From NCBI GenBank assembly GCA_963920705.1, contig OY987227.1, positions 23,151,434-23,215,433 of the forward strand: DNA of 64,000 nt, given 5' to 3'. The stretch is from Odiellus spinosus (taxonomy: Eukaryota; Arthropoda; Arachnida; Opiliones; Phalangiidae). The position numbers and the translations under genes are program-made. Below the pieces are notes generated by a model that was given only the letters and a program-made list of their open reading frames with translations, was not told the origin of the DNA and did no database searches. This document shows positions 1-33,539 of this stretch, piece after piece (positions within the stretch are counted from its first letter, which is position 1; every line of letters begins with the position of its first letter).

Positions 1-3000
1 TGGCTCTTAAACGACGAGCTGAGCGATTCTTATTACTCGACTCATCCGTTTCAGCAACGCGTCAGACATCGTTTCTTGTTGAGCGGCAGTGGCAAAAGGC
101 AACCGGTCGAAAGCGAAGACTCGGGTCGTCACTTTCCTTGGGTTTACGCCCGACAAATATTCTCCAAGTCCTCTTTGAACGGAATTAGCCACATCGCGGC
201 GGCCGATAATTGGTTCCGAAGGCTTTTGTGGGTAGCTCTGTTTATTCTGTGCTTGGGCGGCTTCATCTACCAGGCTGGCTCCTACTTCTACCTCTATTTC
301 AAATACCCGACCACGGTCGAGGTTAAAGTGGAAAATAAAGGATCTCTCGAGTTTCCCGGGGTGACCATTTGCAACAGTAACAAGTACGCGAGAAGCCAAA
401 TTTTTAATCCCTCCACAGCCTGTAGTTAAGACAAATTTCCCCGTTCTTTTCTCAAGAATTCGTCGGTTGCAGTACTGCGAAACATATCATCAAGAGTGCT
501 TGATTAACGCCACGGATTTCGAAGTAATTCAGGTTGAACAAACTTATGTATTATAAGATTTACTATAAGCTGCGTTCATACCAGGCCATGAAGTCGATTC
601 AAACCGTTTCGATGCGGTCATGTGTCATCAATCGATTCAGATTTAAATATCGATTTGATTATATCGATTAAATTCAATTGAGATAAACCGGTGTGAACGT
701 AGCTTATATAATTGATGCGCGTTTCGATGTTAAGTCGTTTAGTGGCTATTTCTCCTTAAGTGACACCGCGCCTCATATAACTTTTAACGTCTTGTCATGG
801 ACACACTCAAGCTACGGTCACACTAGCATTTCTTAATCGATTTGAAACGCTAAAATCAAACCGATACTCAAATCGCCAGGGATCGATTTAAGCGTCATGT
901 GTTCCCGCATTATCTTCATAAATCGATTTATTGTAGCTTTATCTATCGGTTGTTGAAACCGAATCGGTATGAATCAGATACTCGAAGCAGTTTCGAGAAA
1001 TCGAATCAAATCGATTTGATAAAAGACGGTTTCCTGTTCCCATGACTCCAGCGAAACGTTTTGGAACGGTTTAAATCGATTCCAAGGTCTAAACTATAAC
1101 AAGCGCATATAAGCTACGTTCACACCTGGCACTTTGGAACCGTTTTCAAACCGTTTCGAATGTTCAAATTGACTTTTCAAGATACTAAATTGGTTTCTTG
1201 ATGATAGATCTACACGGGTAACCCCAAAATTTTTTAATTTAACCTTTCCAAAACGGTTAAAAACGGTTTCGAAGTCTGAAGTGTGAAAGCAGCTATAGAA
1301 ACATTCGAGCCTCCCTTAAATTTTCGAATTAAAGGCGATTTTTGAAGCGAAGAGCAAAAAAGGAAACAATATATCACCTAAGCTTTAAGAATTTTCTGAG
1401 TCAAAAAAAAAAAAAAAAAAAAAAACTAAATAATAATTATAATTGTATTGTTCGCAGAACAATTTTTTTTTTTTGGTGCGAAAATCGCTTGGTGAATGTT
1501 AACGCCTATGCTGACCATCAGGTATTCGAAATGTAATTTAAATTGGCAGTTGTTATAACGAGAGTTAATATTATTAACAAACAAGTCCCGACACAGACTA
1601 GTTTATAATTTCTTAACTCCAAATTCAATTAAAATCTCATTGGCTATTTACATTAATTACTGCGTCGTTGAACTCGTTGAAAACTGAGATTTACGTCCAG
1701 ATTATATAATCCAGGGCTTCGTCAACTCGATTCGAGGTAACAGAGTGTATTTTTTCAAGGGGTGTTTTTTTCCTGGGGTGTAATTTTTCAAGGGGTATAT
1801 TTCTTCAAGTACTTTTTCAAGGGGTGGTGTATTTTTTAAGGGGTGATTTCAAGGAGTGTATTTTTTCAAGGGGTGTATTTTTTCAAGGGGTGTATTTTTT
1901 CAAGGAATGTATTTCACCCCTTGTAAAAAAATTAAAAAAAAATCTCAATTTTTCTCAATCTCAATTTTTCTCAATCTCAATTTTTCTCAATCTCAATTTT
2001 TCTCAATCTCAATTTTTCTCAATCTCAATTTTTCTCAATCTCAATTTTTCTCAATCTCAATTTTTCTCAATCTCATTTTTTCTCAATCTCAATTTTTCTC
2101 AATCTCAATTTTTCTCAATCTCAATTTTTCTCAATCTCAATTTTTCTCAATCTCAATTTTTCTCAATCTCAATTTTTCTCAATCTCAATTTTTCTCAATC
2201 TCAATTTTTCTCAATCTCAATTTTTCTCAATCTCAATTTTTCTCAATCTCAATTTTTCTCAATCTCAATTTTTCTCAATCTCAATTTTTCTCAATCTCAA
2301 TTTTTCTCAATCTCAATTTTTCTCAATCTCAATTTTTCTCAATCTCAATTTTTCTCAATCTCAATTTTTCTCAATCCCAATTTTTCTCAATCCCAATCTT
2401 TCTCAATCCCAATTTTTTTTTCTCAATCCCAATTTTTCTCAATCCCAATTTTTCTCAATCCCAATTTTTCTCAATCCCAATTTTTCTCAATCCCAATTTT
2501 TCTCAATCCCAATTTTTCTCAATCCCAATTTTTCTCAATCCCAATTTTTCTCGATCCCAATTTTTCTCAATCCCAATTTTTCTCAATCCCAATTTTTCTC
2601 AATCCCAATTTTTCTCAATCTCAATTGAGAAAAACCGTTTACGGTCATGTAGTCTACTTGAGAAATATCCTTAACATCGTGTGTAAAGGAATCTCGAATC
2701 GCCATTCAAATTGTTTAAAGAGCGTTTATGCCTTCATAACACGCCCCTGCTAAAGCATCATTAATTCCATGGGCTTCACCGTCTTGTTCTTTTCAAAGCG
2801 CGTTTTTCTTTTCAATGGATGCTTTATTTTCAAAGGGTGTTTTATTTTCAAAGCGTGTTTTGTTTTCAAGGGGTGTTTCAATTTCAAACGTTGTTTTCAA
2901 TGAGTTCTTTATTTTCAAAGGGTGTTTAATTTCAAGAGGTGTTTTATTTTCAAAAAAAGTGCTGTTTTATTTTCAAAAAAGGGGTGTTTTATTTTCAAAA

Positions 3001-6000
3001 AAGTGGTGTTTTATTTTCAAAAAAGGGGTGTTTTATTTTCAAAAAAGGGGTGTTTTATTTTCAAAAAAGGGTGTTTTATTTTCAAAAAAGGGGTGTTTTA
3101 TTTTCAAAAAAGGGTGTTTTATTTTCAAAAAAGGGGTGTTATATTTTCTAAAAAGGGGTGTTTTATTTTCAAAAAAGGGGTGTTTTATTTTCAAAAAAGG
3201 AGTGTTTTATTTTCAAAAAAGTAGTGTTTTATTTTCAAAAAAGGAGTGTTTTATTTTCAAAAAAGGAGTGTTTTATTTTCTAAAAAGGAGTGTTTTATTT
3301 TCAAAAAAGGAGTGTTTAATTTTCAAAAAAGGAGTGTTTTATTTTCAAAAAAGGAGTGTTTTATTTTCATAAAAGGGTGTTTTATTTTCAAAAAAGGAGG
3401 GTTTTATATTCAAAAAAGGGGTGTTTTATTATCAAAAAAGGGGTGTTTATTATCAAAAAAGGAGTGTTTTATTTTCAAAAAAGGGATGTTTTATTTTCAA
3501 AAAAGGGGTGTTTTATTTTCAAAAAAGGGGTGTTTTATTTTCAAAAAAGGGGTGTTTTATTTTCAAAAAAGGGGTGTTTTATTTTCAAAAAAGGAGTGTT
3601 TTATTTTCAAAAAAGGGGTGTTTTATTTTCAAAAAAGGGGTGTTTTATTTTCAAAAAAAGGGGTGTTTCATTTTCAAAAAAGGGGTGTTTTATTTTCAAA
3701 AAAGGGGTGTTTTATTTTCAAAAAAGGAGTGTTTTATTTTCAAAAAAGGGGTGTTTTATTTTCAAAAAAGGGGTGTTTTATTTTCAAAAAAAGGGGTGTT
3801 TCATTTTCAAAAAAGGGGTGTTTTATTTTCAAAAAAGGGGTGTTTTATTTTCAAAAAAGGGGTGTTTTATTTTCAAAAAAGGGGTGTTTTATTTTCAAAA
3901 AAGGGGTGTTTTATTTTCAAAAAAGGGGTGTTTTATTTACAAAAAGGGGTGTTTTATTTTCAAAAAGGGGTGTTTAATTTTCAAAAAAGGGGCGTTTTAT
4001 TTTCAAAAAAGGGGCGTTTTATTTTCAAAAAAGGGGCGTTTTATTTTCAAAAAAGGGGTGTTTTATTTTCAAAAAAGGGGTGTTTTATTTTCCAAAAAGG
4101 GGTTTTTTATTTTCAAAAAAGGGGTGTTTTATTTTCCAAAAAGGGGTGTTTTATTTTCAAAAAAAGGGGTGCTTTATTTTCAAAAAAGGGTGTTTTATTT
4201 TCAAAAAAGGGTGTTTTATTTTTTCAGGGGGTGTATTTTTACAGGGGGTGTATTTTTACAGGGGGTGTATTTTTACAGGGGGGTGTATTTTTACAGGGGG
4301 TGTATTTTTACAGGGGGTGTATTTTTACAGGGGGTGTATTTTTTACAGGGGATGTATTTTTACAGGGGGTGTATTTTTACAGGGGGTGTATTTTTTACAG
4401 GGGGTGTATTTTTACAGGGGGTGTATTTTTTACAGGTTTTTTTTTACAGGGGTCTATTTTTACAGGGGGTGTATTTTTACAGAGGGTGTATTTTTACAGG
4501 GGGTGTATTTTTACAGGGGGTGTATTTTTACAGGGGGTGTATTTTTTACAGGGGGTGTATTTTTTACAGGGGGTGTATTTTTTACAGGGGGTGTATTTTT
4601 TACAGGGGGTGTTTTATTTTCAAAAAAGGGGTGTTTTATTTTCATAAAAGGGGCGTTTTATTTTCAAAAAAGGAGCGTTTTATTTTCAAAAAAGGGGTGT
4701 TTTATTTTCAAAAAAGGGGTTTTTTATTTTCAAAAAAGGGGTGTTTTATTTTCCAAAAAGGGGTGTTTTATTTTCCAAAAAGGGGTGTTTTATTTTCAAA
4801 AAAAGGGGTGCTTTATTTTCAAAAAAGGGGTGTTTTATTTTCAAAAAAGGGTGTTTTATTTTTTCAGGGGGTGTATTTTTACAGGGGGTGTATTTTTTAC
4901 AGGGGGTGTATTTTTACAGGGGATGTATTTTTACAGAGGGTGAATTTTTACAGGGGTGTATTTTTACAGGGGGTGTATTTTTACAGGGGGTGTATTTTTA
5001 AAGGGGGTGTATTTTTACAGGGGGTGTATTTTTACAGGGGGTGTATTTTTACAGGGGGTGTATTTTTACAGGGGGTGTATTTTTACAGGGGGTGTATTTT
5101 TTACAGGGGGCGTATTTTTTACAGGGGGTGTATTTTTTACAGGGGGTGTATTTTTTACAGGGGGTGTATTTTTTACAGGGGGTGTATTTTTACAGGGTGT
5201 GTATTTTTTACAGGGGGTGTATTTTTTACAGGGGGTGTATTTTTACAGGGGGTGTATTTTTACAGGGGGTGTATTTTTACAGGGGTGTATTTTTTACAGG
5301 GGGTGTATTTTTTACAGGGGGTGTTTTATTTTCAAAAAAGGGGTGTTTTATTTTCAAAAAAGGGGTGTTTTATTTTCAAAAAAGGGGTGTTTTATTTTCA
5401 AAAAAGGGGTGTTTTATTTTCAAAAAAGGGGTGTTTTATTTTCAAAAAAGGGGTGTTTTATTTTCAACAAAAGGGGTGTTTTATTTTCAAAAAAAGGGGT
5501 GTTTCATTTTCAAAAAAGGGATGTTTTATTTTCAAAAAAGGGTTGTTTTATTTTCAAAAAAGGGGTGTGTTATTTTCAAAAAAGGGGCGTTTTATTTTCA
5601 AAAAAGGGACGTTTTATTTTCAAAAAAGGGGCGTTTTATTTTCAAAAAAGGGGTGTTTTATTTTCAAAAAAGGGGTTTTTTATTTTCAAAAAAGGGGTGT
5701 TTTATTTTCCAAAAAGGGGTGTTTTATTTTCCAAAAAGGGGTGTTTTATTTTCAAAAAAAGGGGTGCTTTATTTTCAAAAAAGGGGTATTTTATTTTCAA
5801 AAAAGGGGTATTTTATTTTCAAAAAAGGGTGTTTTATTTTTTCAGGGGGTGTATTTTTACAGGGGGTGTATTTTTACAGGGGGTGTATTTTTACAGGGGG
5901 GTGTATTTTTACAAGGGGTGTATTTTTACAGGGGGTGTATTTTTACAGGGGATGTATTTTTACAGGGGGTGTATTTTTTACAGGCGGTGTATTTTTACAG

Positions 6001-9000
6001 GGGGTGTATTTTTACGGGGGGTGTATTTTTACGGGGGGTGTATTTTTACAGGGGGTGTATTTTTTACAGGGGGTGTATTTTTACAGGGGGTGTATTTTTA
6101 CAGGGGGTGTATTTTTACAAGGGGTGTATTTTTACAGGGGGTGTATTTTTTACAGGGGGTGTATTTTTTACAGGCGGTGTATTTTTACAGGGGGTGTATT
6201 TTTACAGGGGGTGTATTTTTACAGGGGGTGTATTTTTACAGGGGGTGTATTTTTTACAGGGGGTGTATTTTTTACAGGGGGTGTATTTTTTACAGGGGGT
6301 TTATTTTTTACAGGGGGTGTATTTTTACAGCGGGTGTATTTTTACAGGGGGTGTATTTTTACAGAGGGTGTATTTTTTACAGGGGGTGTTTTTTTACAGG
6401 GGTGTATTTTTTACAGGGGGTGTATTTTTTACAGGGGGTGTATTTTTACAGGGGGTGAATTTTTACTTTGGGTGTATTTTTACAGGGGGTGTATTTTTAC
6501 AGGGGGTGTATTTTTTACAGGGGGTGTATTTTTTACAGGGGGTGTATTTTTTACAGAGGGTGTATTTTTTACAGGGGGTTTATTTTTACAGGGGGTGTAT
6601 TTTTACAGGGGGTGTATTTTTACAGAGGGTGTATTTTTTACAGGGGGTGTTTTTTTACAGGGGGTGTATTTTTACAGCGGGTGTATTTTTACAGGGGGTG
6701 TATTTTTTACAGGGAGTGTATTTTTTACAGGGGGTGTATTTTTACAGGGGGTGTATTTTTTACAGGGGGTGTATTTTTTACAGGGGCTGTATTTTTACAG
6801 GGGGTGTATTTTTACAGGGGGTGTATTTTTACAGGGGGTGTATTTTTACAGGGGGTTTATTTTTTAAAGGGGGTGTATTTTTACAGGGGGTGTATTTTTA
6901 CAGGGGTGTATTTTTACAGGGGGTGTATTTTTTACAAGTGGTGTATTTTTACGGGGAGTGTATTTTTACAATGGGTGTATTTTTTACAGGGGGTGTATTT
7001 TTACAGGGGGTGTATTTTTACAGGGGGTGTATTTTTACAGGGGGTGTATTTTTACAGGGGTGTATTTTTACAGGGGGTGTATTTTTTACAGGGGGTGTAT
7101 TTTTACGGGGAGTGTATTTTTACAATGGGTGTATTTTTTACAGGGGGTGTATTTTTACAGGGGGTGTATTTTTACAGCGGGTGTATTTTTACAGGGGGGT
7201 GTATTTTTACAGAGGGTGTATTTTTTACAGGGAGTGTTTTTTTACAGGGGGTGTATTTTTACAGGGGGTGTATTTTTACAGGGGTGTATTTTTACAGTGG
7301 GTGTATTTTTTACAGGGGGTGTATTTTTTACAGGGGGTGTATTTTTACAGGGGGTGTATTTTTTACAGGGGGTGTATTTTTTACAGGGGGTGTATTTTTA
7401 CAGGGGGTGTATTTTTACAGGGGGTGTATTTTTACAGGGGGTGTATTTTTACCGGGGGTGTATTTTTACAGGGGGTGTATTTTTAACAGGGGGTGTATTT
7501 TTACAGGGGTGTATTTTTACAGGGGGTGTATTTTTTACAGAGGGTGTATTTTTACAGGGGGTGAATTTTTACTTAGGGTGTATTTTTACAGGGGGTGTAT
7601 TTTTACAGAGGGTGTATTTTTTACAGGGGGTGTTTTTTTACAGGGGGTGTATTTTTACAGGGGGTGTATTTTTACAGGGGGTGTATTTTTTACAGGGGGT
7701 GTATTTTTTACAGGGGGTGTATTTTTACAGGGGGTGTATTTTTTACAGGGGGTGTATTTTTTACAGGGGGTGTATTTTTACAGGGGGTGTATTTTTACAG
7801 GGGGTGTATTTTTACAGGGGGTGTATTTTTTACAGGGGGTGTATTTTTTACAGGGGGTGTTTTTTTACAGGGGGTGTATTTTTACAGCGGGTGTATTTTT
7901 ACAGGGGGTGTATTTTTTACAGGGGGTGTATTTTTACAGGGGGTGTATTTTTACAGGGGGTGTATTTTTTACAGGGGGTGTATTTTTTACAGGGGGTGTA
8001 TTTTTACAGGGGGTGTATTTTTACAGGGGGTGTATTTTTACAGGGGGTGTATTTTTACAGGGGGTGTATTTTTACAGGGGGTGTATTTTACAAGGGGTGT
8101 ATTTTTACAGGGGGGTGTATTTTTTACAGGGGGGTGTATTTTTTACAGGCGGTGTATTTTTACAGGGGGTGTATTTTTACAGGGGGTGTATTTTTACAGG
8201 GGGTGTATTTTACAGGGGGTGTATTTTTTACAGGGGGTGTATTTTTTACAGGGGATGTATTTTTTACAGGAGGTTTATTTTTTACAGGGGGTGTATTTTT
8301 ACAGCGGGTGTATTTTTACAGGGGGGTGTATTTTTAAAGAGGGTGTATTTTTTACAGGGAGTGTTTTTTACAGGGGGTGTATTTTTACAGGGGGTGTATT
8401 TTTACAGGGGGTGTATTTTTACAGTGGGTGTATTTTTTACAGGGGGTGTATTTTTTACAGGGGGTGTATTTTTACAGGGGGTGTATTTTTTACAGGGGGT
8501 GTATTTTTTACAGGGGGTGTATTTTTTACAGGGGGTGTATTTTTACAGGGGGTGTATTTTTACAGGGGGTGTATTTTTACAGGGGATGTATTTTTACAGG
8601 GGGTGTATTTTTAACAGGGGGTGTATTTTTACAGGGGTGTATTTTTACAGGGGGTGTATTTTTTACAGGGGGTGTATTTTTACAGGGGGTGAATTTTTAC
8701 TTAGGGTGTATTTTTACAGGGGGTGTATTTTTACAGAGGGTGTATTTTTTACAGGGGGTGTTTTTTTACAGGGGGTGTATTTTTACAGGGGGTGTATTTT
8801 TTACAGGGGGTGTATTTTTTACAGGGGGTGTATTTTTTACAGGGGGTGTATTTTTACAGGGGTGTATTTTTTACAGGGGGTGTATTTTTTACATGGGGTG
8901 TATTTTTACAGGGGGTGTATTTTTACAGGGGGTGTATTTTTACGGGGGGTGTATTTTTACAGGGGGTTTATTTTTTAAAGGGGGTGTATTTTTACAAGGG

Positions 9001-12000
9001 GTGTATTTTTACAGGGGTGTATTTTTACAGGGGGTGTATTTTTTACAGGGGGTGTATTTTTACGGGGAGTGTATTTTTACGGGGGGTGTATTTTTACAGG
9101 GGGTGTATTTTTACAGGGGGTGTATTTTTACAGGGGGTGTATTTTTACAAGGGGTGTATTTTTACAAGGGGTGTATTTTTACAGGGGGGTGTATTTTTTA
9201 CAGGGGGGTGTATTTTTTACAGGCGGTGTATTTTTACAGGGGGTGTATTTTTACAGGGGGTGTATTTTTACAGGGGGTGTATTTTACAGGGGGTGTATTT
9301 TTTACAGGGGGTGTATTTTTTACAGGGGGTGTATTTTTTACAGGGGGTTTATTTTTTACAGGGGGTGTATTTTTACAGCGGGTGTATTTTTACAGGGGGG
9401 TGTATTTTTACAGAGGGTGTATTTTTTACAGGGAGTGTTTTTTACAGGGGGTGTATTTTTACAGGGGGTGTATTTTTACAGGGGGTGTATTTTTACAGTG
9501 GGTGTATTTTTTACAGGGGGTGTATTTTTTACAGGGGGTTTATTTTTACAGGGGGTGTATTTTTTACAGGGGGTGTATTTTTTACAGGGGGTGTATTTTT
9601 ACAGGGGGTGTATTTTTACAGGGGGTGTATTTTTACAGGGGGTGTATTTTTAACAGGGGGTGTATTTTTACAGGGGTGTATTTTTACAGGGGGTGTATTT
9701 TTTACAGGGGGTGTATTTTTACAGGGGTGAATTTTTACATAGGGTGTATTTTTACAGGGGGTGTATTTTTACAGGGGGTGTATTTTTACAGGGGGTGTAT
9801 TTTTTACAGGGGGTGTATTTTTTACAGGGGGTGTATTTTTACAGGGGGTGTATTTTTTACAGGGGGTTTATTTTTTACAGGGGGTGTATTTTTACAGCGG
9901 GTGTATTTTTTACAGGGGGTGTATTTTTACAGGGGGTGTATTTTTACAGGGGGTGTATTTTTACAGGGGGTGTATTTTTACAGGGGGTGTATTTTTACAC
10001 CCCCTGTAAAAATACACCCCCTGTAAAAATACACCCTAAGTAAAAATTCACCCCCTGTAAAAATACACCCCCTGTAAAAATACACCCTAAGTAAAAATTC
10101 ACCCCCTGTAAAAATACACCCCCTGTAAAAAATACACCCCCTGTAAAAAATACACCCCCTGTAAAAATGCACCCCCTGTAAAAATACACCCCCTGTAAAA
10201 AACACCCCCTGTAAAAAATACACCCTCTGTAAAAATACACCCCCTGTAAAAATACACCCCCTGTAAAAATACACCCCCTGTAAAAATACACCCCCTGTAA
10301 AAAATACACCCCCTGTAAAAATACACCCCCTATAAAAAATACACCCTATGTAAAAATACACCCCCTGTAAAAATACACCCCCTGTAAAAAATACACCCCT
10401 GTAAAAAATACACCCCCTGTAAAAAATACACCCCCTGTAAAAATACACCCCCTGTAAAAAATACACCCCCTGTAAAAAATACACCCCCTGTAAAAATACA
10501 CCCCCTGTAAAAAATACACCCCCTGTAAAAATACACCCCCTGTAAAAATACACCCCCTGTAAAAATACACCCCCTGTAAAAAATACACCCCCTGTAAAAA
10601 ATACACCCCCTGTAAAAACACACCCCCTGTAAAAACACACCCCTGTAAAAAATACACCCCCTGTAAAAAATACACCCCCTGTAAAAATGCACCCAATGTA
10701 AAAATACACCCCCTGTAAAAAAACACCCCCTGTAAAAAATACACCGTCTGTAAAAATACACCCACTGTAAAAATACACCCGCTGTAAAAATACACCCCCT
10801 GTAAAAATACACCCCCTGTAAAAAATACACCCCCTGTAAAAATACACCCCCTGTAAAAATACACCCCCTGTAAAAAATAAACCCCCTGTAAAAAATACAC
10901 CCCCTGTAAAAAATACACCGTCTGTAAAAATACACCCACTGTAAAAATACACCGCCTGTAAAAAATACACCCCCTGTAAAAAATACACCCCCTGTAAAAA
11001 TACACCCCTTGTAAAAATACACCCCCTGTAAAAATACACCCCCTGTAAAAATACACCCCCTGTAAAAATACACCCCCTGTAAAAAATACACCCCCCTGTA
11101 AAAAATACACCCCCTGTAAAAACACACCCCCTGTAAAAAATACACCCCCTGTAAAAAATACACCCCCTGTAAAAATACACCCCCTGTAAAAAATACACCA
11201 TCTGTAAAAAATACACCCCCTGTAAAAATACACCCCCTGTAAAAATACACCCCCTGTAAAAATACACCCCCTGTAAAAAATACACCCCCTGTAAAAAATA
11301 CACCCCCTGTAAAAAATACACCCCCTGTAAAAAATACACCCCCTGTAAAAAATACACCCCCTGTAAAAATGCACCCCCTGTAAAAATACACCCCCTGTAA
11401 AAAAACACCCCCTTTAAAAAATACACCCTCTGTAAAAATACACCCCCTGTAAAAATAGACCCCCTGTAAAAATACACCCCCTGTAAAAATACACCCCCTG
11501 TAAAAATACACCCCCTGTAAAAATACACCGCCTGTAAAAAATACACCCCCTGTAAAAAATACACCCCCTGTAAAAATACACCCCTTGTAAAAATACACCC
11601 CCTGTAAAAATACAACCCATGTAAAAATACACCCCCTGTAAAAAATACACCCCCTGTAAAAATACACCCCCTGTAAAAAATACACCCCCTGTAAAAAATA
11701 CACAACCTGTAAAAATACACCCCCTGTAAAAAATATACCCCCTGTAAATATACACCCTCTGTAAAAATACACCCCCTGTAAAAATACACCCCCTGTAAAA
11801 AATACACCCCCTGTAAAAAATACACCCCCTGTAAAAACACACCCCCTGTAAAAAATACACCCCCTGTAAAAAATACGCCCCCTGTAAAAATGCACCCCCT
11901 GTAAAAATACACCCCCTGTAAAAAAACACCCCCTGTAAAAAATACACCCTCTGTAAAAATACACCCGCTGTAAAAATACACCCGCTGTAAAAATACACCC

Positions 12001-15000
12001 CCCTGTAAAAAATACACCCCCTGTAAAAAATACACCCCCTGTAAAAATACACCATCTGTAAAAATACACCCCCTGTAAAAATAAACCCCCTGTAAAAAAT
12101 ACACCCCCTATAAAAATACACCGCCTGTAAAAAATACACCCCCTTTAAAAATACACCCCCTGTAAAAATACACCCCCTGTAAAAATACACCGCCTGTAAA
12201 AAATACACCCCCTGTAAAAAATACACCCCCTGTAAAAATACACCCCTTGTAAAAATACACCCCCTGTAAAAATACAACCCCTGTAAAAATACACCCCCTG
12301 TAAAAATACACCCCCTGTAAAAAATACACCCCCTGTAAAAAAACACCCCCTGTAAAAAATACACCCCCTGTAAAAATACACCCCCTGTAAAAAATACACC
12401 CCCCTGTAAAAAATACACCCCCTGTAAAAAATACACCCCCTGTAAAAATACACCCCCTGTAAAAATACACCCCCTGTAAAAATACACCCCCTGTAAAAAA
12501 TACACCCCCTGTAAAAAATACACCCCCTGTAAAAAATACACCCCCTGTAAAAATACACCCCCTGTAAAAATACAACCCATGTAAAAATACACCCCCTGTA
12601 AAAAATACACCCCCTGTAAAAATACACCCCCTGTAAAAAATACACCCCCTGTAAAAAATACACAACCTGTAAAAATACACCCCCTGTAAAAAATACACCC
12701 CCTGTAAATATACACCCTCTGTAAAAATACACCCCCTGTAAAAATACACCCCCTGTAAAAAATACACCCCCTGTAAAAAATACACCCCCTGTAAAAACAC
12801 ACCCCCTGTAAAAAATACACCCCCTGTAAAAAATACGCCCCCTGTAAAAATGCACCCCCTGTAAAAATACACCCCCTGTAAAAAAACACCCCCTGTAAAA
12901 AATACACCCTCTGTAAAAATACACCCGCTGTAAAAATACACCCGCTGTAAAAATACACCCCCTGTAAAAAATACACCCCCTGTAAAAAATACACCCCCTG
13001 TAAAAATACACCATCTGTAAAAATACACCCCCTGTAAAAATAAACCCCCTGTAAAAAATACACCCCCTGTAAAAAATACACCCCCTGTAAAAAATACACC
13101 CCCTGTAAAAATACAAACCCTGTAAAATATACAAACCATGTAAAAAATACATCCCCTGTAAAAAATACACCCCCTGTAAAAATACACCCCTTGTAAAAAT
13201 ACACCCCTTGTAAAAATACACCCCCAGTAATAATACACCCCCTGTAAAAAATACACCTCCTGTAAAAATACACCCCCTGTAAAAATACACCCCCTGTAAA
13301 AATACACCCCCTGTAAAAATACACCCCCTGTAAAAATACACCCCTGTAAAAAATACACCCCTGTAAAAAATACACCCCCTGTAAAAAATACAATCCCTGT
13401 AAAAATACACCCCCTGTAAAAATACACCCCCTGTAAAAATACACCCCTGTAAAAAATACACCCCCTGTAAAAAATACACCCCCTGTAAAAATACACCCCC
13501 TGTAAAAAATACACCCCCTGTAAAAAATACACCCCCTGTAAAAATACACCCCCCGTAAAAATACACCCCCCGTAAAAAAACACCCCCCGTAAAAAATACA
13601 CCCTCTGTAAAAAATACACCCCCTGTAAAAATACACCCCCTGTAAAAAATACACCCCCTGTAAAAAATACACCCCCTGTAAAAATACACCCCCTGTAAAA
13701 ATACACCCCCTGTAAAAAACACCCCCTGTAAAAAATACACCCCCTGTAAAAATACACCCCCTGTAAAAATACATCCCCTGTAAAAATACACCCCCTGTAA
13801 AAATACACCCCCTGTAAAAAATAAACCCCCTGTAAAAAATACACCCCCTGTAAAAATACACCCCCTGTAAAAAATACACACCTGTAAAAAATACACCCCC
13901 TGTAAAAATACACCCCTGTAAAAATACACCCCCTGTAAAAATACACCCCCTGTAAAAAATACTTCCCCTGTAAAAAATACACCCCCTGTAAAAAATACAC
14001 CCCCTGTAAAAATACACCCCCTGAAAAAATACACCCCCCTGTAACAATACACCCCTGTAAAAAATACACCCCCTGTAAAAATACACCCCCTCTAAAAAAT
14101 ACACCCCCTGTTAAAAATACACCCCCTGTAAAAATACACCCCCTGTAAAAATACACCCCCTGTAAAAAAAAACACCCCCTGTAAAAAAAACACCCCCTGT
14201 AAAAAATATACCCTCTGTAAAAATACACCCCCTGTAAAAATACACCCCCTGTAAAAATACACCCCCTGTAAAAATACACCCCCTGTAAAAAATAAACCCC
14301 CTGTAAAAAATACACCCCCTGTAAAAATACACCCCCTGTAAAAAATACACCCCCTGTAAAAAATACACCCCCTGTAAAAATACACCCCCTGTAAAAATAC
14401 ACCCCCTGTAAAAATACACCCCCTGTAAAAATACACCCCCTGTAAAAATACACCCCCTGTAAAAATACACCCCCTGTAAAAATACACCCCCTGTAAAAAT
14501 ACACCCCTTGTAAAAATACACCCCCTGTAAAAATACACCCCCTGAAAAAATACACCCCCTGTAAAAATACACCCCCTGTAAAAATACACCCCCTGTAAAA
14601 AAACACCCCCTGTAAAAAATACACCCCCTGTAAAAATACACCCCCTGTAAAAAACACACCCCCTGTAAAAAATACACCCCCTGTAAAAAATACACCCCCT
14701 GCAAAAATACACCCCCTGTAAAAAACACCCCCTGTAAAAAATACACCCTCTGTAAAAATACACCCTCTGTAAAAATACACCCCCTGTAAAAATACACCCC
14801 CTGTAAAAATACACCCCCTGTAAAAATACACCCCCTGTAAAAAATAAACCCCCTGTAAAAAATAAACCCCTTGTAAAAATACACCCCCTGTAAAAATACA
14901 CCCCCTGTAAAAATACACCCCCTGTAAAAATACACCCCCTGTAAAAATACACCCCCTGTAAAAAATAAACCCCTGTAAAAAATACACCCCCTGTAAAAAT

Positions 15001-18000
15001 ACCCCCCTGTAAAAAATACACCCCCTGTAAAAAATACACCCCCTGTAAAAATACGCCCCCTGTAAAAATACACCCCCTGTAAAAATACACCGCCTGTAAA
15101 AAATACACCCCCTGTAAAAAATACACCCCCTGTAAAAATACACCCCTTGTAAAAATACACCCCCTGTAAAAATACACCCCCTGAAAAATACACCCCCTGT
15201 AAAAATACACCCCCTGTAAAAATACACCCCCTGTAAAAAACACCCCCTGTAAAAAATACACCCCCTGTAAAAATACACCCCCTGTAAAAATACACCCCCT
15301 GTAAAAATACACCCCCTGTAAAAATACACCCCCTGTAAAAATACACCCCCTGTAAAAATACACCCCCTGTAAAAATACACCCCCTGTAAAAAATAAACCC
15401 CTGTAAAAAATACACCCCCTGTAAAAATACCCCCCCTGTAAAAAATACACCCCTTGTAAAAAATACACCCCCAGTAAAAATACACCCCCTGTAAAAATAC
15501 ACCCCCTGTAAAAATACACCGCCTGTAAAAAATACACCCCCTGTAAAAAATACACCCCCTGTAAAAATACACCCCTTGTAAAAATACACCCCCTGTAAAA
15601 ATACACCCCCTGAAAAATACACCCCCTGTAAAAATACACCCCCTGTAAAAATACACCCCCTGTAAAAAAACACCCCCTGTAAAAAATACACCCCCTGTAA
15701 AAATACACCCCCTGTAAAAAATACACCCCCTGTAAAAAATACACCCCCTGTAAAAAATACACCCCCTGTAAAAAATACACCCCCTGTAAAAATACACCCC
15801 CTGCAAAAATACACCCCCTGTAAAAATACATCCCTTGTAAAAATACACCCCCTGTAAAAATACAACCCCTGTAAAAAATACACCCCCTGTAAAAAATACA
15901 AACCCTGTAAAAAATACATCCCCTGTAAAAAATACACCCCCTGTAAAAATACACCCCTTGTAAAAATACACCCCCTGTAATAATACACCCCTGTAAAAAT
16001 ACACCTCCTGTAAAAATACACCCCCTGTAAAAAAACACCCCCTGTAAAAAATACACCCCCTGTAAAAAATACACCCCCTGTAAAAAATACACCCCCTGTA
16101 AAAAATACACCCCCTGTAAAAAATACACCCCCTGTAAAAATACACCCCCTGCAAAAATACACCCCCTGTAAAAATACATCCCTTGTAAAAATACACCCCC
16201 TGTAAAAATACAACCCCTGTAAAAAATACACCCCCTGTAAAAAATACAAACCCTGTAAAAAATACATCCCCTGTAAAAAATACACCCCCTGTAAAAATAC
16301 ACCCCTTGTAAAAATACACCCCCTGTAATAATACACCCCTGTAAAAAATACACCTCCTGTAAAAATACACCCCCTGTAAAAATACACCCCCTGTAAAAAT
16401 ACACCCCCTGTAAAAAATACACCCCCTGTAAAAAATAAAACACCCCTTTTTTGAAAATAAAACACCCCTTTTTTGAAAATAAAAAACCCCTTTTTTGAAA
16501 ATAAAACACCCCTTTTTTGAAAATAAAACACCCCTTTTTTGAAAATAAAACACCCCTTTTTTGAAAATAAAACATCCCTTTTTTGAAAATAAAACACCCC
16601 TTTTTTGAAAATAAAACTCTCCTTTATTGAAAATAAAACACCCCTTTTTGGAAAATAAAACACCCCTTTTTGGAAAATAAAACACCCCTTTTTTGAAAAT
16701 AAAACACCCCATTTTGGAAAATAAAACACCCCTTTTTGGAAAATAAAACACCCCTTTTTTGAAAATAAAACACCCCTTTTTTGAAAATAAAACATCCCTT
16801 TTTTGAAAATAAAACACCCCTTTTTTGAAAATGAAACTCTCCTTTATTGAAAATAAAACACCCCTTTTTGGAAAATAAAACACCCCTTTTTTTGAAAATA
16901 AAACACCCCTTTTTGGAAAATATAATACCCCTTTTTGGAAAATATAATACCGCTTTTTGGAAAATATAACACCCCTTTTTTGAAAATAAAACACCCCTTT
17001 TTTGAAAATAAAACACTCCTTTTTTCAAAATAAAACACTCCTTTTTTCAAAATAAAACACTCCTTTTTTCAAAATAAAACACTCCTTTTTTCAAAATAAA
17101 ACACTCCTTTTTTCAAAATAAAACACTCCTTTTTTCAAAATAAAACACTCCTTTTTTCAAAATAAAACACTCCTTTTTTCAAAATAAAACACTCCTTTTT
17201 TCAAAATAAAACACTCCTTTTTTCAAAATAAAACTCCTTTTTTCAAAATAAAACACTCCATTTTTCAAAATAAAACACTCCTTTTTTCAAAATAAAACAC
17301 TCCTTTTTTCAAAAAAAAAAACACTCCTTTTTTCAAAAAAAAAGCACTCCTTTTTTCAAAATAAAACACTCCTTTTTTCAAAATAAAACACCCCTTGTAA
17401 AATTTTTGATAATTTATTTTACAGGGTGTGTATTTATTTTTTTTTTTACAAGGATGGAGATTGAGAAACATGGAGATTGAGAAAAATGGAGATTGAGAAA
17501 AATAGAGATTGAGAAAAATGGAGATTGAGAAAAATGGAGATTGAGAAAAATGGAGATTGAGAAAAATGGAGATTGAGAAAAATGGAGATTGAGAAAAATG
17601 GAGATTGAGAAAAATGGAGATTGAGAAAAGTGGAGATTGAGAAAAGTGGAGATTGAGAAAAGTGGAGATTGAGAAAAGTGGAGATTGAGAAAAATGGAGA
17701 TTGAGAAAAATGGAGATTGAGAAAAATGGAGATTGAGAAAAATGGAGATTGAGAAAAATGGAGATTGAGAAAAATGGAGATTGAGAAAAATGGAGATTGA
17801 GAAAAATGGAGATTGAGAAAAGTGGAGATTGAGAAAAGTGGAGATTGAGAAAAGTGGAGATTGAGAAAAATGGAGATTGAGAAAAATGGAGATTGAGAAA
17901 AATGGAGATTGAGAAAAATGGAGATTGAGAAAAATGGAGATTGAGAAAAATGGAGATTGAGAAAAATGGAGATTGAGAAAAATGGAGATTGAGAAAAATG

Positions 18001-20862
18001 GAGATTGAGAAAAATGGAGATTGAGAAAAATGGAGATTGAGAAAAATGGAGATTGAGAAAAATGGAGATTGAGAAAAATGGAGATTGAGAAAAATGGAGA
18101 TTGAGAAAAATGGAGATTGAGAAAAATGGAGATTGAGAAAAATGGAGATTGAGAAAAATGGAGATTGAGAAAAATGGAGATTGAGAAAAATGGAGATTGA
18201 GAAAAATGGAGATTGAGAAAAATGGAGATTGAGAAAAATGGAGATTGAGAAAAATGGAGATTGAGAAAAATGGAGATTGAGAAAAATGGAGATTGAGAAA
18301 AATGGAGATTGAGAAAAATGGAGATTGAGAAAAATGGAGATTGAGAAAAATGGAGATTGAGAAAAATGGAGATTGAGAAAATGGAGATTGAGAAAAATGG
18401 AGATTGAGAAAAATGGAGATTGAGAAAAATGGAGATTGAGAAAAATGGAGATTGAGAAAAATGGAGATTGAGAAAAATGGAGATTGAGAAAAATGGAGAT
18501 TGAGAAAAATGGAGATTGAGAAAAATGGAGATTGAGAAAAATGGAGATTGAGAAAAATGGAGATTGAGAAAAATGGAGATTGAGAAAAATGGAGATTGAG
18601 AAAAATGGAGATTGAGAAAAATGGAGATTGAGAAAAATGGAGATTGAGAATAATGGAGATTGAGAATAATGGAGATTGAGAATAATGGAGATTGAGAAAA
18701 ATGGAGATTGAGAAAAATGGAGATTGAGAAAAATGGAGATTGAGAAAAATGGAGATTAAAAAAATTGGAGATTGAGAAAAAAGGAGATTGAGAAAAATGG
18801 AGATTGAGAAAAATGGAGATTGAGAAAAATGGAGATTGAGAAAAATGGAGATTGAGAAAAATGGAGATTGAGAAAAATGGAGATTGAGAAAAATGGAGAT
18901 TGAGAAAAATGGAGATTGAGAAAAATGGAGATTGAGAAAAATGGAGATTGAGAAAAATGGAGATTGAGAAAAATGGAGATTGAGAAAAATGGAGATTGAG
19001 AAAAATTTTGATTTTTATTCTTTGATTTGTTACAAGGGGGGGGTTTTGAAATTTTTTTCGTTCGTTGAAATATTTGTTCGTTCGTTGAAATTTTTGTTCG
19101 TTCGTTGAAATTTTTGTTCGTTCGTTGAAATTTTTGTTCGTTCGTTGAAATTTTTGTTCGTTCGTTGAAATTTTTGTTCGTTCGTTGAAATTTTTGTTCG
19201 TTCGTTGAAATTTTTGTTCGTTCGTTGAAATTTTTGTTCGTTCGTTGAAATTTTTGTTCGTTCGTTGAAATTTTTGTTCGTTCGTTGAAATTTTTGTTCG
19301 TTCGTTGAAATTTTTGTTCGTTCGTTGAAGTTTTTTTAAACCCCTTGTTTAATATTGTCAAGGAGGATCAGAGAAGGAGAGGAAATATGGGGCTGCGTTG
19401 AGTTAGAGAGAGAAGAGCCAACCTCCCACTCGGGTGGAAAGGGGGGATAGGAAATTCTCGAGGTAAACTGTTGTCACGTGGTCGCTAGCTAGCGCGTCTC
19501 ATAAAGGATTCGTTTTACCCACGCGACAACATTTTACCACGAAACGTCTCTACCCCCGTCTTCCCAGAGTGGGAGTTTAGGCCGACGCAGTAGGAACCGC
19601 GCCGTCCCCACATTTCCTCTCCTTCTCTGATCCTCCTTGATATTGTCACGCTGATCCACTGTTTAGGAGATTTCTCCCACTGGTCAAACCTGTGATGGTA
19701 TAGCTTTACTTTTATAGAAACAATGTACTCTGAAATTACCATTGAAAAATAGTATATTAATTAGAGTGCCATCGAACCAACCACGCACGGTTTATTATCT
19801 CGTATCTTTTACAGCAAAATATTGTTACTTTATCGCAGGAAAAAGTATCCCGATTGGATAAACAGGTTCAGATAGCGTTGGGTCACAACAAGAGCGGTCT
19901 ATTCATCAACTGCTCCCTAGAAGGAAGAGAAATTATTAGCGGCGAGGACTGCTTCAGGTTAGGTTATAGGAGCGACATAATGAAAAGGAGCCTCGATTGA
20001 GGATAACGATCCTAATTTCTTCTTCCAGGCATTTTAACCTGTTCTTCATCCCGGATCACGGTAATTGTTTCACGTTTAACGCGGTGTGGAACTCGAAAGG
20101 AGAGAAGATGTTCCACGCTTACGAATCCGACATTTGGAATTCACCCACTGGTATTGTTGCCGTTATTCAAAATACGCCCGACTTAACTCTTTGACTCAGT
20201 TTTAGAATTAGATCTGAATGTCGAAGCGGAGGAATACCTCGACCAGTACGTTTCGCCAGCCATTCTCGTGTCCGTTCACGCTCCCGATTCCTATCCGGAC
20301 CCCGAAGCCGGTCGAGTCAAAGCCTTACCGGGCAATCTTTACAACATTGGCTTGAAAAAATCCACTACCATTTTATTGCCGACTCCCTACCAAACCAATT
20401 GCACCGAATACAGAGATTTACCATGGACTAAAGGTTATCCGGGAAAATTACATCCTAAAGTAATTCAGTTTTTTCGTTCATCGCTCGCTACTCATCTCAA
20501 TACCACTCGTATCTCGATAACTTACGAAAATCTTTTAGATGTGCACCCAAGAATGTTCAAGGAACGCGCAAATCGAGCAGTGCAAATGCGTTTCGCCCAA
20601 TTTAACTCGTTTAACATCCGACGAGGCTCCGTGCACAGTTAATTCAGATGCTGGTAAGCAAAAAAAATGTTTAGTCTAGTGGTGGTTTAGTCTAAGAAGA
20701 AATGGCGTTTCTTAAACGGTAACTCGAATCTCGGTATTTTTGGGATTCGAATTCTTAGTTTCATCATAGTTCGGAGGCGTATATACGAGTTCTTATAAAG
20801 ATTAATTTTCACCAAACGACTTTCTCAGGAAAAACAAAATTGTTCCTCTAGCAAAACAATAA

Positions 20863-20895
<33 letters not shown>

Positions 20896-23800
20896 GGGAG
20901 AAAAATGATTTATAAAGTGTGTTTTCGCTAGCTTGGCTTAAATATTTTTTCGTTTTGCTTTTCGCGTCAAAAACAGGCTGGTGAAAATTAGCCGTTACCC
21001 GGCATTCCCAGCAAGAAGTAGAAAGTTAAGGAACTAAAACTTAATATGTTTTATAGGAGAAACGCTATTCCCATTTCTTTTTGTTATAATATTTTGGTTT
21101 AAAATTTTAAATGAAACTAGTTTCCCTTACGCGCAGCATTATGTGCCGAAATGGCTGAAGATCAAACGAAATCCTACTGCCGAACTCTTTGCAGAGTTCC
21201 TTGCGAGTAAGATTTGATTATAAGCAATGATCCACTATTAAATCTTTCCCTATTGCGAGCTATAACAAAAAAAAAAAAAAAATTAAGTATGTGGCTTATG
21301 GTATAAGGGGTCCTATTAACATCACTCGTCTAAAATAGAAAGTAGTACTTAGTGGATATATATTCTTAGAAACCAAGTTTTCCCAAATAGAAGAAAAGTT
21401 TTAAAGAATATTTTTATCTTTGTAGGAATTGTGGTTAAGTATATGTTTGCGATACCAGTCGTAAAATTGGTAAGGCAACGTTAAAAACCTTATGCATTGT
21501 AAGTTGACAAGAAAAAAAGATTGCATCTAGCCCATAATAGTACGATTTCAAGAGTAGTGACCCCGGACACGCCTCTTTTGGATTGCGTTTTAATAACACA
21601 AAGAGGTGAAGAGGAAAATGATTGAAAAAGGCGACACATTTTCCGTAATTACTCGAAGCTCTATCTATAGGGGCAAACGAATTAGTGGATTAGTGCTTTA
21701 AAATTCTCAGCTGTGTACTAAAAGTGAGAATGATAAACTTATTTTCAGAAGAACTATTTACGAAGTTACTGTAGACACAACCGCCTGGCCTAAACCCAAC
21801 GAGGTACATGTTATAAATACAACCATGAAGTACAACAGAGTTGCCACAGACCAGGAAAACGTAGAATATTCAGAAAAGGCAGAGAACTTTGAAATTCTTA
21901 AAAAATTCCTATATGTGGGTCTATTTTTGTTTAAAACGCTGCATCGATTTAGTGTAGGCACATTTAATGATGAGCCTAGAAAATTACAACTTTCTCACAG
22001 TTTAATCAAGAAAAACAGAATATTTGGATATTAATACTGTGATGTAATAGGGAAAAATCTATTAGGAGAATCAGAAGCCGATGAAACCCTCCTTTGAAGT
22101 CTACTACTCCAATGTTCCATATAGCGCTCCTCTCTGTATGGGTAAAATTCCCAATTTTACGAGTTAGAAGGGGTCCTACTTCATCCCCCCTGTCTACGGA
22201 AAATTGGAAATTCTCTCTCTCCACAAACGACGACGTTTTTTGGACGAACTCCAAGGCTGCTAGAGATATTCCCGCTCCGAAAACATCTACCGTTAGGAGG
22301 CGTACGAATCGCGCCTTTTGAGAATAACCCATACAGAGAGGGGTAGACAAGACCCGGGAGTAATAGACATCAAAGGAGGGTTTCATCGGCTTCTGGGAGA
22401 ATTTACATGTAGAAGGTTTGTAGATTGTCAAAGAAAAACCTAAAAACTTAAGGCCTCTTTAAAATAAAATATCTGTGGCAACCCCGTACAAAAAGTCTAC
22501 GATTTATAGGCTGCGAAATTCATTTTGTGGGTTTTAAAATGAAACGCTTTTCTTAGAAAGGTGAACTTGGCAAGTGGGCCAACAAGAGTTTGAGTGAAAT
22601 AAGGTAATATCATTTTTGGTTTAATTTTTAAAAATAAAATTTTTGGAAGCCAGTTTTTTCTATTTCCATAGAAAGAATTTACTGAAGGTTAAGATTTACT
22701 TACGTAGCATGGAGCACACTAAATACGAGCATTTACCCAAATATTTGGTAAGTTATTCATTAGCCAGTCCAATTTCTTCCAAGATTTTTTTGTATTAGAG
22801 AAACTCGGGAGATCAAATTTGAACCTGAAACTAAAATTATAATATAAGAAGTGTTGAGCTTAACGAGAGAGTATCACATTCCAACAATTGTTAATAAAAT
22901 TAATGAAACCTATCACTTAAAGGAAAATCTTCAATTACTGTTAGATTTAATTTTTAAATTACCTTAAAGTTGAAATTAGAGACAAAATTAAACTCCATTT
23001 TCGTTTATTTTCAAGATCACCAAAAGAAGCATTCGAAAGGTTTTTTTACAACTAGCGCTCATGTTTTTGGTGTTTAAATTAAGTTCTAAAGTTTAAGTTT
23101 TAATGTAAGTATAAAATCGAACCAATCAGTTGAACCCAACCGCTCCCGCCATCAACAATACAGATTTCCCAATATATCAATATATTCTGGCGACGTTACT
23201 GTCGCGACGTTTACAAGTAACTCAACCGTTGAAGGTTGAAATAAAACGATTGGTTCGAATTTACCCTGCACTGAAATTCCCACAAAACCCATCTTCATAA
23301 TTTAAATCAAGCACTGAAATATCCCCTAAAAATTGTAGAAATATGTTATTCAGATATAGTTTTGTGTTCCATTTTAAAGCTCTTATAATTTCCCTTTAAA
23401 CTTTTCTAAATAATGAAAAAAAGACAAGCTTAAGCAGTATTTAATCTAAACGGTCAAATATGTTTTTTCATTTAGTAGTATCAAAAGTAGAAGTGGGTAA
23501 GCTCCCCCTTTTAACTAGGGCAAGGCGACTAAAAAATTAGAATTTATCATTTTCGCGGGAAACTGCAAACCCAAAATCGTGCGGCCCGCGGTTTCACCAC
23601 GCCTTCTTCCATCTCTAGTCGAAGAATCGCGCGCGATTTCGTGTATTCATCTTCGGTTTCCCGCCAAGAGCGGAAAATTTGGGAGAGAATAACAAGATGT
23701 GTAGCCCATAGTTATAGCTACACTTCTTAAACGCCTAAAGTCAATTGGCTTCCAAGTTTCCAAGTTTCATTGAAAAAAAGTAACATGCCGTTCATGTTAC

Positions 23801-25106: not shown

Positions 25107-28100
25107 TTAGAGTTCCGTATTGACGGGGGCTTTCGTGGCTTGTCTGGAGGCTTCATCGATGATAGGTTTCGGCTTGACAGACACCTCGACGGGTGTCGAG
25201 GACACGGTGGGATGAATTTCGTCACCAGTCACTTCGCATACCCACGATCCGTCATCCCGACCAGAAGTAGCGCCGCTAACCCGGATACTGCAGTCGCCCA
25301 TCGAAGTATCACCGACCCAAGTAAGATGAGGTAGACGATCCAAGTTGAATCCGATATTTTTTCCGTTATGAAGCCACAAACAATCTCCGACGATGTTTTG
25401 AACGATGCAGTCCAATTCGAAGGTAGAGGCTTCTTCCACTTCAACTGCTTTTGGTGAACGGATCAGAGTCTGCGCGTCTATAGAAAAACAAATATTTAAA
25501 CATTTTCCACCGTGTACCGTACCGCTTCCTTTCCGCTCCATCCTCGTAATTACATCCATAAGCGTTAACTAGTACTTAGCAACCCAATCGAATCATAGTT
25601 ATCCCAATTTCGCACTGTTTGGGACTATTACCGTGAGATTTCTGTAAGAGAAGAGTGCTGTCAACTACGCTCGATAGCCATTCTTTAATTAAAGCGACGT
25701 TTTGAATATCCGCTTGCTTGTTAGCAGTCATATTCAGAAGTTGACTGCTAAACCAGGCACTCTTGTTCTGAGAGAAAATACCAATCATTAGTCTGAAGAG
25801 TTTTTAAAGATATAAATTCAAGGATGAATAGTTACTGTTGCAAATTCAATTACTCCCATTGCTGGCAAGATTCTTGGCATGCCGTAGGTTTTACTCAGGT
25901 AATCTTTCATCTAAAATAAATATCAGTTCAATTTACACGATACGGAAGAGTATATTTTCTTCCGTAACGTTACCATGGTTACAATTGGGAAGACCTCGGA
26001 GTCTATCCAAATGACGTTCAGGCTTTCGTATTTATTATCAGTGCTGTTTCGAACGACCTTGGTCAAAAGACGATTGAAATACCCACCGACAGACGATGCT
26101 TTCGCCCCAATGGCGATTACGGTATTCGCGGATAAGTTCAGGGCCTGGATGTACATGAAAAACAAAATTTATTTTCCGAAATTTAAGTTAACCTTTAACT
26201 TTTATTTACCAGAGTGTCCTCTAGATTTTCTTCAGTTAGATACAAAAAGGCGCTGACTCCATTCTGTTTTACAAAATTTTCGATATCCAAAGCACTGGCC
26301 GGCTAATTTGTTAAACGAATGGTTAGAAATAGGCGTGGATGAGTTGGATAACCTCAAATATTGGTTCCTCTCCAGAAACCGTGTTAGAATTGTTACTAAT
26401 AATAGTTAATTAAAACTTGCGTTAATCGGACAAGGAATGCCTATTTTCTGAGATGATTTGTATAGCGAAATTTGTCCAACAGTGTCTAATTTCAAGTGTT
26501 TAGCTACGAGGCGATCGAAAACGACGTAGAACGGAAAATCGGGGGCAAGGTTCTTTGCCGCGGTTTCGTACGCTTGGTAATCTCCAGTTCCGAGAACGAA
26601 GAAACCGACCAATCGAGTTTGTTGAACGGCATCAAACGCTAGTTTATCTAACTTGCCGGCAATTACTTTGAGAGGATTGGTCTTTATCTGAAAATGCATG
26701 GATTTAATCTTTGACTTTGAGTAAAGAAAAAGCTCGTGGAGAAACTCTACTTCTTAAAATACGGCTCGCATCTTCCAACACGCTTTGGCTGGCTAGCTAG
26801 CTTACCGTACTATTTTTTAACTACTTAGAAGAAACGTTACCTTTTTTATGTAAGACACTAGATTAGTCAGGTCCCGTTTTCCTCTGTAGGTGTAGCGTTT
26901 TCCATCGACAAACACGTGAATACCAAAGAATTTGTACAGTGCTACGCAAAATATTTAGTTAAGGATTTAGTTTTCAATAGGCCTTATTATAAAATAATCT
27001 TGGAAACGAATAAAAGAGCCGTTAAAAAGCACCCGTTTGTATTGAAGATGGTCCCTTTTTTCAAGGCTGGTACAAAGTGTAGGATTTTCTATACTTTCTC
27101 CAACCTTGAAACTAATAAAAAGAGCCGTTAAATAGAACCAGTTTATACGGAAGATGGTACATTTTTTCAAGGTTGAGACGTAGTCAGAATTTATGTTATC
27201 GTCTATTAATTAGGCGGATGTATTTCATTATACTTCAGCGGCACATACTACGTAACCAAAGGGACATGTCCCTTTGACTATTTTCATTTTACTGGTTCCC
27301 GCAAAAGTCTTTCAGAAAGTTAAGGTGACAATTTTTTTTTTTTTTTTTTTTTTACTGTTCACGCGTATTAGATGCAGCTGAAAGATCACAAATTATCCCA
27401 GAAAAGTAATTATCACCCACTAGCGTAATGCTATCAGATAATTTGAACAATTACGTCAAAGACAGCTAACCAGGCTTGAATTACATAGGAAAGTCAAAAC
27501 GGTGCCCTGATCACCTGTTTAATTCACGTAGCTATGACAGAATCAAGTCGGGAGTTAAATATAAATATATAGGTAGCTTTAATGTGCTTCTCTATATTGA
27601 CTTTTGAGCAGTTTCCCAATTACAACTTTTTTAACAAAAGTAGCTAAACTCGCCTATTCAAACTCTACCCAAGTAGATTTCACTATGAAGCGTAACAATT
27701 AAGACAAATATTAAACATTATTACTAAAAACAGCTAAAAGAAGGTACACATAGATTGACATACAAAAATACCGGAATTATACCATGAACGTTAAGGATTG
27801 TATAAGCTTTTAATCTTGAATGCTTTGGTAGCGCAAGGGATTTGGCGTTATTCCAAATTTTACTTACTAGTGTTTAAAAGACTGGAGTTCTTGACCTTAA
27901 CGCTAATGACGGAAACGTTGTCAACGGCAAGTAACTGGGCCAAAACTTCCGCGAAATCAACTTTCCCTTCGGTTTTAGAACAGGCGCACTCGGTGGCATT
28001 TGTATTACCGTCTTCCACAAGGACGACACTGGTTCCAAGAGCCACGGCAGCGGTCACTTCGCCTATATCTTCCTCAGTGAAATGCTTGACCCGACTAGCC

Positions 28101-33528: not shown

Positions 33529-33539
33529 TAATATAAATC

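Follow-up and report, generated by a model that had tools for sequence, protein, structure and literature searches.

We describe here a 17.6-kb block of DNA from the arachnid Odiellus spinosus (Opiliones) in which three kinds of short tandem repeat are mirrored around a single point within a gene intron. The block lies in a stretch of 64,000 nucleotides, hereafter the window, which occupies C3:23151434-23215433 of the 443-Mb host assembly (GCA_963920705.1); positions without a prefix refer to this window. A satellite array is usually described as a single family with all its units pointing one way, and a long palindrome with hardly any spacer is usually regarded as unstable. Pfam ASC (DEG/ENaC channel) matches flank the block on the same strand, at 1-427 (E 1.4e-20, profile 2-83) and at 20187-20639 (E 4.4e-5, profile 205-284, scoring 23.1 bits with the cut-off at 23.6), and a 40-aa piece at 19839-19958 had no family match in the Pfam search. 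These matches place the block between predicted exons of a DEG/ENaC-type channel gene, the second match being just below the curated cut-off, in agreement with an earlier sequence-only reading of the window, which had assigned the block to one intron. No host function is proposed for it.

Tandem Repeats Finder (TRF) found that the 16-, 22- and 17-bp arrays of the left side reappear at the right on the opposite strand and in reversed order, and the GC skew passes from +0.69 to -0.68 at 10 kb. On the plus strand of the left arm, from the outside inward, lie a degenerate 17-bp variant, recognized by TRF and unit comparison (GTGTATTTTTTCAAGGG; 1741-1914, TRF row 1745-1914), a 16-bp array of 686 bp (AATCTCAATTTTTCTC; 1941-2626) with an inner CCC sub-block seen by sequence reading, a 163-bp fragment of a dispersed mobile element (2627-2789), a 22-bp array (TTTTATTTTCAAAAAAGGGGTG; 2790-4222), a stretch of alternating blocks found on this arm only (4217-5318), an inner 22-bp block (5318-5840) and the 17/18-bp core array with its G-rich strand (TGTATTTTTACAGGGGG; 5840-9993). 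The TRF rows overlap here: the 22-bp family spans 2790-5840, with its best rows at 2934-4222 and 5318-5840, and the 17-bp row (4217-9999) runs across the inner 22-bp blocks, which sequence reading resolves into 17-bp (4217-~4607), 22-bp (~4608-4866) and 17-bp (~4866-5318) sub-blocks. The right arm, on the minus strand, holds the 17/18-bp core array (9994-16434, TRF row 9996-16434), the 22-bp array (16432-17396), a spacer of the palindromic P type (17397-17453) and a 16-bp array of 1553 bp (ATGGAGATTGAGAAAA; 17454-19006). The spacer was recognized by masked BLAST, which found similar stretches in the blocks C4_19.48, C3_21.77 and C4_21.44. Outermost on the right, and only there, stands a plus-strand 20-bp array (TTGAAATTTTTGTTCGTTCG; 19046-19335); a pattern of its first units matched only one place genome-wide at up to three mismatches, and without a second genomic place this family was dropped as a marker of the right end.

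The sequence-only reading had described most of this organization. The mirrored order and its turn near 9994 are borne out by TRF, by the skew flip and by the hairpin fold given below, and so are the unequal 16-bp arms, one consensus base apart, the additional 22-bp blocks on the left and the restriction of the 20-bp family to the right. The C/G difference that it reported between the 22-bp arms exists, but it is confined to a sub-block of the right arm (~17020-17390, from sequence reading) with G in place of C. Its account of the block omitted the 163-bp fragment and an element with inverted ends at 19358-19640.

A perfect 22-bp hairpin with a 4-nt loop (9970-10017) forms the turn, whose centre falls between 9993 and 9994. 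As a single strand, 9970-10024 folds at -24.1 kcal/mol, with a stem of 9970-9991 paired to 9996-10017 and a TTTT loop, a value equalled by none of 200 shuffles. The short hairpin TGTA-TTTT-TACA is present within every 17-bp unit, and a single unit folds at -1 kcal/mol, with two of 200 shuffles as good. The canonical turn is an exact switch from G5 to C5 across this unit hairpin. We propose that the turn persists or renews because every 17-bp unit contains such a hairpin, a natural place for fold-back; in this regard, fold-back of a strand end at the unit hairpin may have made or renewed turns.

The window is not an isolated case. A pattern for convergent turns returned 54 rows across the assembly, corresponding to 40 distinct places. 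The canonical T5 hairpin is present at 23 of them and a T6 form at one, nine are variants that were read, and the remaining seven, left unread, lie on C2, C7, C11 and C84, where after GGGGTGTATTTTT comes either CCCC or additional T and then ACCCC. Twelve of the 33 turns read have kilobase arms (the window, C1:32.7 Mb and ten loci taken with 10 kb on each side) and 21 were read over about 300 bp per side, in 20 short windows. The same kind of layout is present at other loci.

Polarity is identical at all 33 turns read, with the G-strand at the left and the C-strand at the right. In the 20 short windows, G-runs occur left of the centre only, and C-runs right only in 19; the exceptional window holds two turns 36 bp apart and a single C-run at the left, and at C15:12843514 the left side has two G-runs only. 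Over the 12 larger loci, motif matches pointing inward and outward numbered 6210 and 35 for the 17-bp family, 3876 and 30 for the 16-bp family, and 1042 and 2 for the 22-bp family, and every arm with at least ten matches pointed inward (24/24, 17/17 and 15/15, respectively). In the left arm of C4_23.72, 12 of the 16-bp matches point inward and 17 outward; the outward cluster, 8.2-8.4 kb out, is an unrelated 23-bp array by TRF. The matched pattern for divergent turns returned 27 rows (reversed control, 6), and only two of them carry the unit's TACA before the G-run (C12:23248678 and C3:16232854), against the 23 T5 and one T6 convergent turns; the former sits between two convergent turns 36 bp apart, and the other 25 rows are different motifs, left unread. 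For a stricter divergent pattern the yield was five rows (three places), fewer than the 29 of its reversed control.

At all 12 larger loci the turn lies in the 17-bp family (which includes variants of 18 and 32 bp), as follows from how the loci were chosen. Among the 11 arms that hold both, clusters of the 22/18-bp kind lie only inside those of the 16-bp kind in seven, on both sides in two and only outside in two. The turns also lie closer to contig ends than a uniform distribution predicts, often toward one end (Kolmogorov-Smirnov p 7e-4); this test covers 29 turns on ten contigs, obtained from the 33 read by merging near neighbours and omitting the seven unread places, and neighbours may still be dependent.

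Some further observations were made at individual loci. Three turns on C12 (19591917, 19604669 and 19616307), 12.8 and 11.6 kb apart, are identical across 90 bases around each and look like a tandem duplication of a whole palindromic module. A variant unit, CCCCTGTAAAAACGAGGGG, at C1:30906039-30924199 lies on the minus strand at the left and the plus strand at the right, possibly another mirror block, and a minus-strand copy of the 163-bp fragment is found on C1 at 30937259. In the left flank of C4_21.44, from about 4400 to 3600 bp before the turn, there is a small foldback, about 800 bp long; its arms contain a GC-rich stretch, apparently not satellite DNA (68 bp, 100% inverted).

The non-satellite fragment inside the left arm bears on the common origin of these loci. 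Its 163 bp have at least 40 matches in the genome (the best 40 of 827 candidates being scored), and in an alignment of the window with C3:23.675 Mb and C5:24.077 Mb the 16-bp array ends, the 163 bp follow and the 22-bp array starts in the same way at all three. A 33-bp pattern across the junction of fragment and 22-bp array occurs at six places, all exact; the junction of fragment and 16-bp array occurs at eight, five exact and three with two or three mismatches; and both junctions together are found at five places on two chromosomes, the window included. The exact junction pattern containing Y has one place in the genome. At C4:19.486 Mb the 16-bp junction is present and the mobile element continues where the 22-bp array would be expected. 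All five fragment copies that lie 7-15 kb from a known turn run inward, the stretch from fragment to turn being incompletely read for C3:23.675, C5:24.077 and C11:17.096. The shared junctions at five places thus argue for common descent of the composite arms, a conclusion that holds for arms and not for whole elements.

The fragment also led to a 14-kb palindrome at C8:6551801-6566133, whose arms are 98.4% identical over 6638 bp (a lower bound, as the left end was not reached). It has its own mirrored 83-bp and 14-bp arrays, with a central 14-bp array of 1.1 kb, and its 151-aa open reading frame matched no family above the Pfam cut-off. A 601-bp piece of it has at least 66 matches (best 40 of 235 candidates scored), among which four other near-complete ones are unpaired and most of the remainder are fragments. 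This palindrome was considered as a parent foldback transposon and dropped.

The arms of each locus were also compared with each other. Between the 17-bp arms of the window the longest exact match measures 156 bp, a length equalled or exceeded in 5 of 50 monomer shuffles (109-165 bp); in a separate test 1 of 20 shuffles reached it, and runs of identical monomers are no longer between the arms than in shuffles. With 36-base words, the other arm of the same locus was the best match for 1 of 24 arms, several of the trimmed arms in this test being short, down to 83 bp. At C3_9.34 and C4_19.48 the unit lengths differ between arms and there is no long exact match from arm to arm.

Comparison of the units with the 17-bp core suggests that several families are related. 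None of 300 shuffles was as good for the outer 17-bp variant (score 46) or for a 30-bp unit, which links both to the core; the links to the P (4/300), 22-bp (5/300) and 18-bp (5/300) units are weaker, and for the 16-bp (128/300) and 20-bp (233/300) families the comparison gave none. A possible seed is ACAAGGGGTACCCCTTGTAAAA, made up of the palindrome ACAAGGGGTACCCCTTGT and AAAA after it; its matches number 4267 in forward and 4077 in reverse orientation, which amount to about 4300 to about 8300 sites since one palindrome can count on both strands. Among the 100 seed places listed, there are clusters on C1 at 0.19-2.4 Mb, whereas the exact 17-bp pairs listed on C1 start at 32.70 Mb. One such cluster (L060) consists of units of about 28-30 bp containing TACACCCCCTGTA and of palindromic P units of 42-45 bp with TA between them; these units stand in tandem, and the TA may belong to the repeat.

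Starting from the layout, dispersal, polarity and shared junctions observed, the explanation that we favour, with a confidence only somewhat above even, is a dispersed, non-coding, foldback-like family in which a small palindromic seed spread and its arms then grew largely separately. The full structure of that seed, the way in which it was copied and the growth of the arrays are reconstructed as follows. The ancestor would have been a short palindrome in which the 17-bp motif occupied the centre, with 22-bp-like and 16-bp motifs farther out; on either side the T-rich strand would have run toward the centre. Copies of this seed, or at any rate of the composite arms, would have reached many places, where the motifs may have grown locally into kilobase arrays through slippage or unequal exchange. 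Because these processes would act mainly between units of the same orientation, the two arms would lengthen and homogenize largely apart from each other. In line with this notion, the fixed strand polarity and the shared non-satellite junctions of a dispersed family indicate that the spread of seeds or arms preceded, or accompanied, the growth of the arrays. Of the two options that the earlier reading had offered, growth outward from a palindromic seed fits better; what that reading lacked was the dispersed family, the fixed polarity and the shared junctions.

Several observations weigh against this explanation. The outer ends differ among loci and no target-site duplication was found at the five loci examined. 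No unexpanded seed carrying all three motifs was encountered, the single cluster read (L060) being made of P-type and ~28-30-bp units only. The loci were picked through the turn pattern, which leaves loci without a turn or with a decayed one invisible and makes the central position of the 17-bp family partly a matter of choice. In 4 of 11 arms a 22/18-bp array is placed outside the 16-bp one, exclusively so in two of them, so that the nested order, exact in the window and in the left arm of C1, is a tendency across the family. In the window the 163-bp fragment is restricted to a single arm, and the side it occupies and the turn's loop type agree in two of five cases, because of which either the whole element moved non-rigidly or one copy of the fragment was lost at random; the fragment was accordingly dropped as a rigid marker of whole elements. 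Arms of one locus are also more similar to each other (0.20) than arms of different loci (0.13; permutation p 0.013), and at 4 of the 12 larger loci the longest arm-to-arm match exceeds the maximum of 20 shuffles (C3_23.66, 150 against 125; C4_21.44, 129 against 122; C5_22.58, strikingly, 436 against 243; C1_32.7, 217 against 215). Given the weak match in the window and the single arm of 24 whose own partner was its best match, yet four loci above their shuffles, the arms evolve largely separately and some arm-to-arm copying has happened. The matches at these four loci allow fold-back a possible part in making or renewing turns.

A genuine foldback-type DNA transposon, with long terminal inverted repeats made of tandem repeats and mobilized in trans by an unseen transposase, is unlikely. 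Long inverted repeats make up most of the element and are internally tandem-repetitive, the palindromes are dispersed, and composite arms with shared descent, as judged from the arm junctions, are common to several places. The P unit, a small inverted repeat with TA between units, presumably resembles small Tc1/mariner-type elements, which would suit a transposon. A side-by-side comparison of the ends of five loci, however, found no common terminal sequence. The best word shared by the two ends of the window is 4 bp, a length as good in 295 of 300 random pairs; none of the other four loci gave a clear duplication, the best being 8 bp at C5_22.58 (8 of 300 random pairs, in one of five tests), and block boundaries in these comparisons are uncertain by some bases. 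Moreover, the arms meet with a 4-nt loop, which leaves no room for a gene between them. No empty site could be demonstrated, the 1000 bp of right flank corresponding to one place in the assembly. The layout is foldback-like, yet the block is not filed as a foldback element, since two defining features, target-site duplication and common termini, were looked for at five loci and neither was found. Nor is it an ordinary satellite array, having three families in two orientations.

Drosophila FB elements, which are inverted repeats of short tandem repeats in ordered series, are alike by description. By layout, the closest systems are Tetris (PMC4079207) and Galileo (PMC4168063), as far as the available parts of the two reports describe them. 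Tetris, a foldback transposon of Drosophila virilis, has inverted repeats whose internal tandem repeats have grown in a satellite-like manner, and no transposase is reported for it, a likeness to be read with the limit that no genome search for a transposase was made here. In contrast to the several mirrored families of 16-32 bp, the variable ends, the missing duplications and the 4-nt loop of our loci, Tetris has one 220-bp repeat family, a flanking domain at the ends and 8-10-bp target duplications (PMC4079207). Galileo, a Drosophila member of the P superfamily, shares long inverted repeats with direct tandem repeats in copy numbers unequal between arms, and fragments of other elements inside the arms; it differs in having a transposase and, in D. 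willistoni, 7- or 8-bp target duplications and tandem repeats of about 140 bp that are confined to a single copy, the one with the longest arms; these measure 4.2 and 4.7 kb, whereas those of the window reach 8-9 kb (PMC4168063). The satellite-like Helentron arrays of the Pacific oyster are likewise scattered through the genome, there on a mobile carrier, whereas no carrier is identified here; the part of that report available mentions no mirrored multi-family set (PMC7492417). Among the titles and abstract openings listed by searches of open-licence papers, no description of a mirror-nested multi-family satellite was found.

Recurrent snap-back in place is unlikely as well. Composite arrays of a single orientation would have come first, and the 3' end of the G/T-rich strand would have folded at TGTATTTTTACA and copied the array backwards, independently at many loci. 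The turns themselves speak for such events: 24 of the 40 places (23 T5 and one T6) turn exactly on the unit hairpin, the nine further turns read are variants resembling separate events, and a single unit folds better than 198 of 200 shuffles. Folding confined to the G-strand end would account for the strand bias, and the four loci with arm-to-arm matches above 20 shuffles agree with copying. Nevertheless, snap-back requires the same polarity to have arisen at each of the 33 turns read, the window arms are not copies of each other, and at C3_9.34 and C4_19.48 the two arms differ in unit length and have no long exact match in common.

It is rather improbable, in our judgement, that these loci are transposase-free, selfish palindromic compound satellites, in which the G/T-rich strand folds at the unit hairpin and gives rise by copying to a hairpin-closed intermediate, linear or extrachromosomal, that inserts through break repair. 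If true, this would explain the strict polarity, the near loop-free centre, the variable ends and the missing target duplications, and the polarity would directly record which strand end folds.

A single giant inverted duplication of a composite array at the window locus, the other option of the sequence-only reading, is very improbable: it accounts for order and strand being mirrored across the turn, but the same kind of layout recurs at other loci, the longest arm-to-arm match shows no clear excess over shuffles, and the 163-bp fragment is on one arm only. An artefact of assembly or read fold-back is hardly conceivable, for although palindromes are a known product of fold-back reads, the window arms differ in length, unit consensus and variants, which upholds the earlier claim that they are no assembly fold-back copy, and the 33 turns lie on ten contigs with mostly different immediate flanks (three on C12 look identical).

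Other repeats are found beside the block and further along the window. The element of about 283 bp at 19358-19640, with 35-bp inverted ends (97%) and TATTG on both sides, adjoins the block, and similar stretches lie near the blocks C4_20.21 and C3_9.34. At 22070-22395 lies a repeat with similar stretches (about 90% identity) next to the blocks C5_21.89 and C5_22.58, the latter having two copies in inverted arrangement. Additionally, 26961-27207 and 33520-33766 form an inverted repeat pair (83%, 6.3 kb apart), and an element of about 590 bp with inverted ends occupies 29460-30045.

Together, a dispersed family that grew from spread palindromic seeds remains the reading we prefer. All 33 turns read share one polarity, and the 12 kilobase-scale loci carry several mirrored families. 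These loci open two questions to testing: by what route satellites reach dispersed sites, introns among them, and whether the growth and inversion of arrays depend on strand orientation.

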